Source: Saprospiraceae bacterium (lineage in GTDB: Bacteria > Bacteroidota > Bacteroidia > Chitinophagales > Saprospiraceae). Taken from it: 64,000 nt of DNA. Made by a program: the position numbers and the translations under genes. Of the stretch, positions 47,444 to 60,049 are shown one piece after another. The stretch spans positions 81,968 to 145,967 of the forward strand of contig JABAQQ010000041.1 of assembly GCA_019187225.1 (NCBI GenBank), given 5' to 3'. Numbering within the stretch: the first letter of the stretch is position 1; every line of letters starts with the position of its first letter. The notes beneath the pieces are model-generated. The model worked only from the letters and a program-made list of their open reading frames with translations, was not told the DNA's origin and made no database searches.

Positions 47444-48361
47444 TCAGATCTTTGCGGTAAAGGACTCGAACCACTTTTTCAACACAGTCTTTTCCGAAAG
47501 ATATTCAAAAGCGAGGTAGGAAACCACCGCAACTGCCCCGCCCAACAAGACGTCAATAAAATAGTGGTGCCTCGAATATACCGCAGCAAACCAGACGCCC
47601 GCGGTAAAAATGGCAAACACGGTATTCAGCCATACCTTTTTCAAACGCCAGCCATAGAGCAGGCACAATACCGGGTAAGCGGAATGGAGCGAAGGAATAG
47701 CGGCAAAGACATTGGCGTTTTTCTGGTACATCCCGGCGAAGAGTGGGAGTCCGAGTAATTTATCGAATTCGAGCAGACCGGCGGCATTGCCCGGTGTGCC
47801 GTGTATCACTTCGAAGCCATATTGCTCCACATACCAGGGCGGTGCAGCCGGGTAGAGGTAGTAGATACAAAAACCAACGATATTGGTAAATACGAACGCA
47901 TAGGAGAACTTGAGAAACAGCAACTTATCGTTGCGCAGCAGCCAAAAGGCGAACAGCAGCGGGATCGGTACCCAGTTGAGGTAGAACAATCCTGACAGGA
48001 TATCCCAAAATGGCGTATGGTGGATTTTAAAATACTCGTTCCAGGTGAGACGACCATCCGGCGTATTCAAGCCGAACCAGTTTTTTTCAAAGTAATAGGG
48101 TTCGGCCACGTGTATGGGATTGACCTCGTAGTTCGGTACCACGCGCATCGAGTCGTATATGATCCAGTAAGCGATAAAAACACCAAATGCCAGCACAAAC
48201 TTCCTGGTTGTGGCGTGTACGTAATATAGCAAAAGGATCATCAAATAAAGGAACAGATGCTCCACTCGCCAACCTACAAAATACCAAAACCACGCAAAAT
48301 AGGCCGCCGAGCCTGCAAAAAGAGTCGAAAAATGCCTGAAATCAAGGGATAAATTTCTCAT
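47444..48361 (-). CDS. PAP2-superfamily inositol phosphorylceramide synthase-like enzyme
   Basis: A multi-pass membrane protein of 305 residues from the ATG at 48361. The PAP2 catalytic motifs are PSLHS (223-227, His226) and SRHHYFIDVLLG (His265/His266 and Asp270). The layout matches AUR1/inositolphosphotransferase-type enzymes, which move phosphoinositol from phosphatidylinositol onto ceramide. Context supports this: it ends the cluster containing PIP synthase, MIPS, PgpA and the ceramide genes, and its start overlaps the end of DUF4833 by 20 bp. A plain phosphatase of the PAP2 type is the alternative. Confidence 0.82.
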   Translation of the reverse strand: MRNLSLDFRHFSTLFAGSAAYFAWFWYFVGWRVEHLFLYLMILLLYYVHATTRKFVLAFGVFIAYWIIYDSMRVVPNYEVNPIHVAEPYYFEKNWFGLNTPDGRLTWNEYFKIHHTPFWDILSGLFYLNWVPIPLLFAFWLLRNDKLLFLKFSYAFVFTNIVGFCIYYLYPAAPPWYVEQYGFEVIHGTPGNAAGLLEFDKLLGLPLFAGMYQKNANVFAAIPSLHSAYPVLCLLYGWRLKKVWLNTVFAIFTAGVWFAAVYSRHHYFIDVLLGGAVAVVSYLAFEYLSEKTVLKKWFESFTAKI

Positions 48362-48878
48362 ATACGGCTGCGCCGGTATTCGGATCCTTACCCCAAAGTT
48401 CCACATATTCCACTTTCGGGGCAAGCGTAAAAGTGGTGCTTTTATCTATTTTCACGAAGATGCGGTCCAGTTTCATTCTCCGGCCGTTCACATCGAGCGT
48501 TACATAGGGCTTGCCGTGCGCATCAAATGCAAGACGCAGTTTTTTCTTAGAGTAACTGACCAAGTGAATTTCATATTCATTGGTGCCGTCTACTTTCCTC
48601 GATTTTACACCGTATGCAAAGGTGCGCTGCATATAGTTCAAACCTGCAGTGCCGCCGCCATCAGCGTAGCGAAGCCAGTAAATATTCACCGGATCGCTGG
48701 CCTTGAAAGTTTTATCACCCGATACGTTGGCGTCATAAATAATGGTGTTGGTATTGCCGGTCCGCTGGATGTAAAACAACCGGTTGAGACCATCCGGCGG
48801 GGTCGGATAAGAGTCCTGAGCAGCCATTCCAAAGGCCGACAGGCAAAAAAGCAATAGATGTGTTAAACGCTTGTTCAT
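48342..48878 (-). CDS. DUF4833 secreted protein of the inositol-lipid cluster
   Basis: A signal peptide (MNKRLTHLLLFCLSAFGMAA) is followed by about 155 residues of beta-rich sequence fitting DUF4833 (RLFYIQRTGNTNTIIYDA, PVNIYWLRYADGGG, RTFAYGVKSRK). The function of the family is unknown; homologues are found next to CDP-alcohol phosphatidyltransferase genes in Bacteroidota. The 20-bp overlap with the PAP2 gene downstream means the two are translationally coupled, which suggests a periplasmic partner of the lipid-headgroup transferase. Confidence 0.78.
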   Translation of the reverse strand: MNKRLTHLLLFCLSAFGMAAQDSYPTPPDGLNRLFYIQRTGNTNTIIYDANVSGDKTFKASDPVNIYWLRYADGGGTAGLNYMQRTFAYGVKSRKVDGTNEYEIHLVSYSKKKLRLAFDAHGKPYVTLDVNGRRMKLDRIFVKIDKSTTFTLAPKVEYVELWGKDPNTGAAVYEKFIP

Positions 48879-48979
48879 TTCAATTGAAGCCTTGAAGTCT
48901 TAATAAATAATGATTTGATTGAAGCATTCCGGGCTTTATTTCTCAAGATTTTGTAGACGAGGCGTTTGCAAAAAAGGTT

Positions 48980-58143: not shown

Positions 58144-59379
58144 TCAAGCCGGAGCCAGCGCTTCAGTTCCGACCGGTTCTTCCGCCCGGTCGCCGATGAT
58201 GCCGTGTTTCACTGCATTGTCGTACATCCGGTCAATGGCGCGGTCAATCTGTTCGATCGTATGCGTGGCCATGAGCGAAAAGCGAATGAGCGATTCCTCG
58301 CTGGGTACTGCCGGAGATACGACGGGGTTGATGAATACGCCGGAATCGAAACACGCGGTGGAATAAGCGAACGTTTTCAGATTGTCGCGCACGTAGATCG
58401 GAATAATGGGCGATTCGCTCGGCCCTACCTCGAATCCGAGTTCGAGGAAGCGGGCGAGGGCATAATTGGTATTTTCCCAGAGGCGCTCCATGCGCTCCGG
58501 CTCGTCGCGCATGATCTGAAGGGCGGCCATCACACTTCCGGCGGCAGCCGGCGTCATGCTGGCGCTGAATATGAGCGCGCGGGAGTGGTGTTTCAAAAAC
58601 TCTATGACATCGCGGTTGGACGCCACAAAACCGCCGAGCGACGCCAATGATTTGCTGAAGGTGCCGGTCTGGATATCCACCTGGTCATGCAGACCGAAAT
58701 GGGAACCGGTGCCGATGCCACCTTCGCCGATGACGCCAATGGCGTGGGCGTCGTCTACCACAACTGCGCCGTTGTATTGCTGTGCAATGCGCACAATATC
58801 AGGTAGTTTGGCAATATCGCCTTCCATGCTGAAGATGCCATCCACAATGATGTATTTCAAAATCCCACCATCGAGCGCCGCCATCTTTTTTTCAAGGTCC
58901 TCCATATCGTTGTGACGGAATTTCTGAACCCTGGCGAATGAAAGACGCGTCGCATCAATGATGGAAGCGTGTACCCGCTCGTCAATCAGGATATAATCAT
59001 GGCGTCCTGCCAACGGCGCAATGGCGCCCAGATTGGATTGAAAACCGGTGCTGTAAAGCAGTACGGCTTCCTGACGCAGGTGGTCGGCCAGCATTTCTTC
59101 CAACTCAATGTGAATACGCAGGGTGCCATTGAGAAATCGCGAACCTGCACAGCCCGTGCCATACCGATCGATGGCTGCTTTGGCGGCTTCCTTTATCTTC
59201 GGGTGATTGGTAAGCCCCAGGTAAGAATTTGAACCGAACATCAGCACCGGCTTTCCGTTGATGATCACTTCCGTGTCCTGCTCGGAATCTATTTCCCGGA
59301 AATAAGGATACCAGCCAAGGGCGCGTACTTCCTTTGCTGCCGTATATTGACGAACGCGATCGAGTAGGTGTTGATTCAT
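58144..59379 (-). CDS. spt: Serine palmitoyltransferase (alpha-oxoamine synthase family)
   Basis: SPT condenses serine with an acyl-CoA (or acyl-ACP) to 3-ketosphinganine, the first step of sphingolipid synthesis. The PLP lysine is Lys243 in [14 protein letters not shown]; His138 ([10 protein letters not shown]) stacks on PLP, and VVDDAHAIG supplies Asp210 and His212. [12 protein letters not shown] and [13 protein letters not shown] are strongly SPT-like. 411 residues. The related enzymes KBL and BioF share these motifs, but the neighbouring FA2H-like, DES1-like and MIPS genes settle the assignment in favour of SPT. Confidence 0.9.
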
Positions 59380-59413
59380 GGCTTATTGTTTTACGAATGT
59401 TTTGAAATCAATG

Positions 59414-60049
59414 TCATGTTTTTTTTCGGGTCAGATTAATAGTCGTATTAAAAACGTAGTCCCACAGCGGATTGCTGACACCGAACCCCCGGTCGTTTTC
59501 CTGGTAGTGGTGCAGCATGTGGTGCTGCTTGATGCGTTGCCAAAAAGGATGATTCCAGCGCAGGTGATGCATGGCATAGTGCATCATATCGTAGCACAAA
59601 TAACCGAGCAGGAACCCTGCAAAAAACGGATAAACCGTAGGTATTCCAAAAATGGCCCGGAAACCGAAAAAGAAAATAAATGCCAGTGGAATGCTCACGC
59701 TGGGTGGCATAACGAGCCGAAAACGGTCGTTCGGGTAGTCATGGTGAACGCCGTGCCAGATAAAATGCAGCCGTTCGCCCCAACGCCCCGGTGGAACCCA
59801 GTGAAAAACAAAGCGGTGTAATACATATTCGGTAAAGGTCCATACGAACAACCCTGCCAATAACAGCCCTATCATGTTGATCCAGCCGCCGTTCCATTGC
59901 CACAACAGCCAAAAAAACAACGGTACGTACAGCAACAGCGGCACGGTAAAGTGCACTTTGGACAGGGCTTCCATCCACGCGGCCTTGAACATCCGGGTAG
60001 ATTCGGTGGAATTGGATATAAATTTTCGTGGTTGCTCTTTTGTTGCCAT
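59414..60049 (-). CDS. Fatty acid 2-hydroxylase-like protein (FA2H/Scs7 type)
   Basis: This 211-residue membrane protein has the di-iron histidine motifs of the fatty acid hydroxylase superfamily: EYVLHRFVFH (His78, His83), HFIWHGVHHDYP (His95, His99, His102, His103), YDMMHYAMHH (His157, His161, His162) and KQHHMLHHY (His176, His177, His180, His181). The spacing and the FGVSNPLWDYVF ending match FA2H/Scs7, which hydroxylates the alpha carbon of ceramide acyl chains, rather than sterol desaturases. It lacks the cytochrome b5 domain of the eukaryotic enzymes. It is the first gene of the cluster, 34 bp before SPT. Confidence 0.87.
   Translation of the reverse strand: MATKEQPRKFISNSTESTRMFKAAWMEALSKVHFTVPLLLYVPLFFWLLWQWNGGWINMIGLLLAGLFVWTFTEYVLHRFVFHWVPPGRWGERLHFIWHGVHHDYPNDRFRLVMPPSVSIPLAFIFFFGFRAIFGIPTVYPFFAGFLLGYLCYDMMHYAMHHLRWNHPFWQRIKQHHMLHHYQENDRGFGVSNPLWDYVFNTTINLTRKKT

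Follow-up and report, generated by a model that had tools for sequence, protein, structure and literature searches.

A predicted inositol phosphorylceramide locus with hydroxylase and desaturase-family genes in a Saprospiraceae bacterium

A predicted twelve-gene sphingolipid locus

Does a single locus in a member of the Bacteroidota hold the genes for an inositol phosphorylceramide, from the lipid backbone to the head group? The question is raised by twelve neighbouring genes on the minus strand (positions 47444-60049) of a 64,000-nucleotide stretch of DNA from a Saprospiraceae bacterium (GenBank assembly GCA_019187225.1). This stretch, here called the window, is part of contig 21 of a draft genome of 7.18 Mb in 73 contigs. 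A first-pass annotation had proposed that the genes form a complete pathway that builds the ceramide backbone and adds the inositol phosphate head group, with enzymes of the fatty acid 2-hydroxylase (FA2H) and sphingolipid Delta4-desaturase (DES) types, in one locus. The twelve consecutive open reading frames (ORFs) are all present as it described, no gap exceeding 145 bp; Pfam and NCBIfam agree with its domain identities for 12 of 12 genes, and the proposal is supported at the gene level. Leaving the DES step aside, we consider it likely that the locus encodes a near-complete inositol phosphorylceramide pathway. If so, this bacterium builds from one locus a lipid class held typical of fungi and plants, and the product perhaps includes the double bond that makes sphingosine.

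From the first gene to the last, the locus encodes FA2H, serine palmitoyltransferase (SPT), a GNAT N-acyltransferase, an SDR reductase, DES, myo-inositol-phosphate synthase (MIPS), a PgpA-family phosphatase, a GtrA protein, a DUF5686 protein, phosphatidylinositol-phosphate (PIP) synthase, a DUF4833 protein and a transferase of the PAP2 superfamily. What can be observed directly is the identity of these genes, their order, their conservation and their signature motifs. The region is 96.7% coding, with successive intergenic distances of 34, 48, 1, 145, -4, 32, 2, 17, 127, 101 and -83 bp; the two overlaps (-4 and -83 bp) depend on TTG starts that were possibly placed too far upstream. A gene-order comparison of the kind suggested at first pass found all twelve genes, in unchanged order, in three other genomes of the same genus (G007, G009 and G031) and on a contig of a metagenome-assembled genome (MAG), L155, which argues that the arrangement is more than chance.

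The G+C content is even across 46000-60000 (0.47-0.52 per 2 kb) and gives no sign of recent transfer, while being compatible with an old one. Promoter-like sites (25, against 15.9, sd 4.5, in shuffled sequence) and terminator-like sites (29, against 20.2, sd 4.6) each lie about 2 sd above expectation and were not used. There were no tRNA genes and no Rfam families at the gathering threshold in the window, and a PADLOC scan of two proteins gave no match.

Ceramide backbone genes

The SPT (58144-59379, 411 aa) would join a fatty acyl chain to serine. It scores 640.9 bits against the NCBI equivalog for Bacteroidetes SPT, NF047600, whose cut-off is 640, a margin of 0.9 bit. By comparison with the PDB it matches solved bacterial SPT (3a2b/8guh, E 1.5e-154), with 518 bits to 3a2b, which we take to be the enzyme from Sphingobacterium. 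The cysteate-C-fatty acyltransferase 28eh reaches 231 bits, arguing against a sulfonolipid enzyme, and chains named BioF or KBL reach at most 281; the protein is thus nearer to solved SPT than to KBL, BioF, ALAS or the cysteate enzyme. The three KBL/BioF models all fell under their cut-offs (392.9 vs 535.4, 385 vs 460 and 366.8 vs 426.45 bits), and a glycine C-acetyltransferase model scored far under its own. A KBL or BioF identity, which the first-pass annotation had named among the findings that would undo its proposal, was therefore rejected. A further homologue is encoded on contig 1 of the same genome.

The next gene (56974-58095) encodes a 373-aa tandem-GNAT N-acyltransferase with neither an NCBIfam match nor a significant PDB sequence match. 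Over its full length it is 35% identical to an N-acetyltransferase encoded on a Sphingomonas parapaucimobilis plasmid, in a cluster with genes for an acyl carrier protein, an SPT homologue and an SDR; its identity to GNATs next to SPT and SDR genes on plasmids of Rubrobacter, Streptomyces and Aureispira is 34-38%. On the Aureispira plasmid the SDR lies on the opposite strand. An AlphaFold model built with six sequences (mean pLDDT 74) is a tandem GNAT, and among the best 50 of 882 structure matches its fold resembles tandem GNATs in general.

GNAT and SPT are also linked across genomes. We surveyed 60 genomes chosen by SPT status. The 24 with SPT comprised 17 above the model cut-off, the window's own genome being excluded, and 7 that carry a DES gene apart from ceramide genes ("lone DES"); the 36 without comprised 14 of the 24 SPT-less lone-DES carriers and 22 chosen manually from the class. 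A GNAT match of at least 380 bits was found in 16 of the 24 and in none of the 36 (Fisher 5e-9, uncorrected for relatedness of the genomes), the best match in any of the SPT-less genomes being 188 bits. GNAT adjoins SPT in 18 of the 24, namely those 16 plus G091 and G441, where identity is 30-31%; it was not found next to SPT in G288, G296, G405, G409, G452 and G456. On account of this link we predict that the GNAT is a ceramide synthase of the bCerS family. The connection runs through the GNAT of the Sphingomonas cluster and not directly to Caulobacter CCNA_01212. It would N-acylate the SPT product, and it offers a candidate SPT-linked ceramide synthase in non-gut Bacteroidota. PMC11334938 states that the genes for the backbone lie apart in Bacteroidota that produce sphingolipids; the 18 adjoining pairs qualify that statement.

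The SDR/epimerase-family protein (55986-56972, 328 aa, PF01370 103.8 bits) is 24-32% identical to SDRs beside SPT and GNAT on the Sphingomonas, Rubrobacter, Streptomyces and Aureispira plasmids. From its position and this identity it is predicted to be CerR-like, and its reduction would yield dihydroceramide.

Some further records touch on this family. E. coli YghO and similar N-acetyltransferases (plasmid matches H42, H45, H46, H57 and H62) share about 33-34% identity with the bCerS-type GNAT. Among these records, those from Klebsiella and Pseudomonas veronii hold an SPT-like gene within about 4 kb. The S. parapaucimobilis cluster also has, adjoining its bCerS-type gene, a gene for a fatty acid desaturase (L288:7768-8862) whose product is not meaningfully similar to the DES of the window (E 0.18).

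Inositol head-group genes

MIPS (53415-54815, 466 aa, PF07994 351.6 bits), whose true start is probably about 15 codons inside the called ORF, would supply inositol phosphate. It matches the solved inositol-3-phosphate synthase 7nwr, presumably the Bacteroides thetaiotaomicron structure, at E 8e-163. A MIPS structure from that species is reported in PMC9246714. The PIP synthase (48980-49684) would attach the inositol phosphate to CDP-diacylglycerol; it scores 360.8 bits against NF052561, the equivalog of BT_1523 (cut-off 350), has the CDP-alcohol transferase motif at residue 77, and finds a supporting match in solved PIP synthases. The PgpA-family protein (52918-53382, PF04608 128 bits), the sole PgpA match in the genome, is a predicted phosphatidylinositol-phosphate phosphatase that would dephosphorylate the product of PIP synthase.

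The last gene (47444-48424) is a candidate inositol phosphorylceramide synthase of the AUR1 type within the PAP2 superfamily (PAP2_3), which would move the phosphoinositol group of phosphatidylinositol onto ceramide. The phosphoinositol dihydroceramide synthase model NF052609 is the sole NCBIfam family that the protein matches, at 315.6 bits, and the proteins of six relatives score 278-326 bits against it. A profile built from the seven PAP2 proteins finds AUR1 as its sole PDB match up to E 1 (best 1e-23); these chains are yeast by name, the organism not being given in the result. Motifs PSLH and HHYFID are present, and PSLH and HHYxxD align with AUR1. A generic phosphatase, the second finding named at first pass as fatal to its reading, was rejected because the profile matches AUR1 alone.

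Three genes between these have less obvious roles. The GtrA/DPMS transmembrane protein (52439-52915, PF04138 61.6 bits) has a counterpart in the inositol gene set of B. thetaiotaomicron, which yields phosphoinositol dihydroceramide and whose GtrA gene is without lipid phenotype (PMC9246714). The DUF5686 protein (49812-52421) has an N-terminal CarboxypepD_reg domain (PF18939 177.7 bits, PF13715 60.7 bits). The small DUF4833 protein (48342-48878, PF16117 138.5 bits) is modelled with low confidence as mostly strands (mean pLDDT 53.8). In the gene orders of the genus DUF4833 is met only together with ceramide genes, and DUF5686 with either half of the locus, including next to SPT-GNAT-SDR in three genomes that lack MIPS; ceramide genes with neither in the stretch occur in G013, G061, G417, G091 and G441. 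From the company they keep, one might guess at a pair for export of sphingolipids to the outer membrane.

Hydroxylase and desaturase genes

The FA2H/Scs7-type protein (59414-60049, 211 aa, PF04116 73.6 bits), a putative fatty acid (ceramide N-acyl) 2-hydroxylase, carries HGVHHDYPNDRFRLVMPP at residue 99. It aligns with SCS7 (4zr1/4zr0) over 180 residues that include the histidine clusters, at E 4e-31, and would 2-hydroxylate the N-acyl chain, a step that we regard as likely.

The DES protein (54812-55840, 342 aa) matches Lipid_DES (PF08557) at 50.8 bits, against a cut-off of 23, and FA_desaturase (PF00487) at 94.7 bits. Its histidine boxes are HEAAH, HIKHH and HNEHH at residues 86, 123 and 257, and no significant sequence match was found in the PDB. 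Such an enzyme would introduce a double bond into the sphingoid base, with Delta4 as the likeliest position, and we give this prediction about an even chance. The hydroxylated, unsaturated product forecast at first pass is thus likely in its first part; the Delta4 bond is its weak link, DES being common in Bacteroidota without an above-cut-off SPT. The description of the cluster as eukaryote-like applies to the AUR1-type transferase, FA2H and DES, and not to the backbone enzymes, which resemble bacterial SPT, bCerS and CerR.

Each reaction, the order of the reactions and the product are predictions from the genes, and several results weigh against them. SPT clears the NF047600 cut-off with less than 1 bit to spare, and the CerR assignment of the SDR corresponds to 24-32% identity within a large superfamily. 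The PAP2 protein lies under the cut-off of 480 bits of NF052609, as do those of the six relatives. PgpA, being single in the genome, could have a plain PGP-phosphatase role, and four relatives retain it though MIPS was not found in their genomes. A cytochrome b5 domain or partner is typical of eukaryotic FA2H/Scs7 members; the window's FA2H has no such domain, and PF00173 has no match anywhere in the genome, for FA2H or for DES, so another electron donor must be assumed for FA2H. The objections that concern DES are taken up next.

Distribution and possible substrates of DES

A DES profile scan of named genomes gave 573 confirmed matches, and the following locus counts are for the best 80. Only 5 of these lie inside a ceramide locus, three of them duplicating G009, G019 and G031. 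Altogether DES lies in the locus in at least 11 distinct genomes, the window's included, and at least five of these have all twelve genes, L155 being the fifth. At the other 75 loci, which include Arcicella, Aquirufa, Hymenobacter, Spirosoma and Mucilaginibacter, no SPT, GNAT, SDR or MIPS was matched beside DES, some of the contigs being short. We examined 32 of these 75 lone-DES genomes for SPT; several are MAGs, in which absence may be incompleteness. SPT of at least 59% identity was found in 7 of the 32, the Xanthocytophaga enzyme is 44% identical, and 24 had nothing above 37%. In the phylum as a whole, PF08557 occurs in 40 of 395 genomes (and in none of 14 control genomes), of which 31 are without and 9 with an above-cut-off SPT. 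Within the class (98 genomes), 9 have DES and an above-cut-off SPT, 6 DES only, 9 SPT only and 74 neither (Fisher 9e-5, a value inflated by 5 of the 9 belonging to one genus, g50). Since many DES carriers are without SPT, the family may also act on sulfonolipids.

This leads to the strongest alternative, to which we give roughly one chance in three by judgement: the product is a saturated, 2-hydroxylated inositol phosphorylceramide, and DES serves for example sulfonolipids, C4 hydroxylation or another position. It denies the DES step only and overlaps with the pathway proposed above, so our estimates for the two are not expected to sum to certainty. In its favour, near relatives of DES (68-75%) occur in Arcicella, Pseudarcicella and Aquirufa, where a cysteate-type acyltransferase is present and SPT was not found; the one in Arcicella aurantiaca was identified as a cysteate-C-fatty acyltransferase by its 530 bits to 28eh, while a Hymenobacter enzyme proved to be KBL. 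The window's genome too has a cysteate-type gene (G000:C24:214-1359, 60% identical to Arcicella's), so sulfonolipids may be made in its cell alongside sphingolipids. However, genes of this type were found in 38 of 41 genomes tested, 139 of 395 in the phylum and 91 of 98 in the class; because of the last figure their presence is uninformative on the substrate of DES. Moreover, a DES of the close type (at least 73% identity) adjoins ceramide genes in all 9 genus genomes that carry it, the window's included.

The DES tree (105 rows, quick search, SH-aLRT support, midpoint root) also bears on this point. All DES from the locus form one group (14 rows, support 82). The first to join it (97) is L161, from WAS_Bin_10, whose genome has SPT (59%) and in which a cysteate-type gene was not found, which weighs against this alternative. 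A mainly Flectobacillaceae set joins next (36 rows in total, 97), apart from the DES of Mucilaginibacter and Chitinophaga. A single capture of DES by the locus would explain this grouping; the midpoint root gives no direction.

A broader proposal joins these threads: that the lipid is a bacterial inositol phosphorylceramide, both 2-hydroxylated and Delta4-unsaturated (sphingosine-type), made with a DES of the kind shared with sulfonolipid-type Cytophagales, and that Bacteroidota DES in general desaturates sphingoid and capnoid bases alike. Taken as a whole we consider it somewhat doubtful. Were it true, relatives of the eukaryotic dihydroceramide desaturase would be spread through a bacterial phylum; the bacterial enzymes of this type would provide material for asking about the origin of the eukaryotic ones.

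One of the five matches inside a ceramide locus bears a label from outside the phylum. A MAG contig labelled Thermoanaerobaculia (Acidobacteriota; L172, JAKLJF010000089.1) carries nine of the locus genes at 49-85% identity to the window, which is probably a binning error and possibly a transfer.

Gene modules among relatives

We surveyed 60 related genomes, the window's own included. DES of at least 42% identity is present in 14 and any DES match in 22; true MIPS is present in 9, a tenth (G041) giving only a 26-bit match, and some GNAT in 44. Four genomes (G019, G002, G035 and G011) have FA2H, SPT, GNAT, DES, SDR, PgpA and GtrA, with no MIPS, PIP synthase or PAP2 in the stretch; in two of them the run continues into LpxC-FabZ, LpxA and an ABC ATPase, which give no clue to a head group. 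G022 has SPT-GNAT-SDR and the genes from MIPS to PAP2, without DES and FA2H, and G029 is similar, except that its contig ends before SPT and PgpA is not there. SPT-GNAT-SDR with DUF5686 and DUF4833 occur in G006, G008 and G023, in whose genomes MIPS was not found. Finally, G012 and one contig of G003 hold the inositol genes and the DUF5686 gene with no ceramide genes. The genus thus divides into natural modules (ceramide only; ceramide and DES without MIPS; inositol only; all) and offers natural knock-outs, with and without DES, FA2H and the inositol genes, for probing each part.

Two genomes of the genus carry another DES type (42-43% identity), L131 in G022 and L130 in G024, which the stretches do not show next to any other gene of the locus. 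In the tree L131 falls together with the four genomes that score highest for PF08557; L130 has a stop inside the matched stretch and was left out of the tree.

Larger regions around SPT, or its nearest homologue, were also taken from 15 other genomes. A composite locus of ceramide genes, inositol genes and FA2H was found in 5 of the 15: Chitinophaga rupis (G481), Mucilaginibacter conchicola (G482), G319, G311 and G149. Another five show just the ceramide genes (G248, which also has DUF5686, G061, G417, G091 and G441), and in five the gene set is not present (G296, G405, G452, G456, which has SPT and SDR only, and G465). All five composite loci share SPT, GNAT, MIPS, DUF5686, PIP synthase, DUF4833 and FA2H in one run; SDR, PgpA and PAP2 are present in 3 of 5 each and GtrA in 2 of 5, two stretches ending before a possible PAP2. 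They differ from the window in that DES lies elsewhere in all five genomes and FA2H follows DUF4833 instead of coming first. The idea that fusion of the ceramide and inositol halves is special to the window did not survive this comparison, and uniqueness of the fused locus was rejected. Among the loci examined, the placement of DES and of FA2H at the head is what is peculiar to the window's lineage.

These modules also suggest that two independent pathways might simply abut, with the ceramide receiving another head group and MIPS, PIP synthase and PgpA making phosphatidylinositol. We consider this unlikely. Each half does stand alone in some members of the genus, and the four relatives with ceramide genes, DES, PgpA and GtrA show no MIPS, PIP synthase or PAP2 in the stretch. 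Against this, the AUR1-type gene, whose profile finds AUR1 alone in the PDB, supplies a chemical link between the halves, and the composite locus recurs in Chitinophaga and Mucilaginibacter. That the enzyme at 58144-59379 is KBL, BioF or a sulfonolipid enzyme instead of SPT is very improbable, the slim margin over the SPT equivalog being outweighed by the far lower scores to the models and chains of those enzymes and by the location of the genome's cysteate-type gene elsewhere.

The locus may extend to a gene for a Band_7/SPFH protein (46392-47294, minus strand, PF01145 77.3 bits), which lies 149 bp downstream and could encode a membrane-domain partner of sphingolipids or be a mere neighbour. 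A gene of this type adjoins PAP2 in each of the four relatives that carry all twelve genes: L119, L120 (the same as L154), L121 (the same as L156) and L155. Farther away, upstream of an adenosylhomocysteinase gene, 62091-63983 encodes a protein that contains repeated segments as well as a Por secretion tail.

Comparison with known systems

The inositol half resembles B. thetaiotaomicron BT_1522-BT_1526, which comprises MIPS, a PgpA-like phosphatase, GtrA, PIP synthase and an AUR1-like PAP2 enzyme, and whose carboxypeptidase-regulatory-like neighbour BT_1527 is comparable to the DUF5686 protein of the window (Heaver et al. 2022, PMC9246714). In that species SPT (BT_0870) lies elsewhere, and the passages of the same paper that were consulted do not name FA2H, DES, GNAT or SDR for the cluster. 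The window differs in having ceramide, tailoring and inositol genes in one locus, with DUF4833 too. The backbone half shares homologous SPT, GNAT and SDR with the Spt/bCerS/CerR set of Caulobacter (PMC11087976), and the SPT-GNAT-SDR order is that of the Rubrobacter and Streptomyces plasmid triads. Compared with such sets, inositol head-group and tailoring genes come after the triad in the window, and unlike the Sphingomonas cluster its run is too tightly packed to hold a gene for an acyl carrier protein.

That Bacteroidota make ceramide phosphoryl-inositol is already known, the lipid having been reported from Sphingobacterium spiritivorum and Bacteroides (PMC9246714). No report of a bacterial dihydroceramide desaturase or of such a fused locus was found among the open-access titles and abstract openings listed, a weak negative. 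Within the reach of that search, what is new is the complete locus with DES inside it, a candidate for the ceramide synthase, tied to SPT, in Bacteroidota other than those of the gut, and the series of modules within one genus.

The eukaryotic route to inositol phosphorylceramide uses Scs7/FA2H, DES and AUR1. The predicted product of the window belongs to the same class, and enzymes homologous to SCS7 and AUR1 are shared, the window's FA2H differing in the absence of cytochrome b5. In place of the eukaryotic ceramide synthase and ketoreductase the window has bCerS-type and CerR-like proteins.

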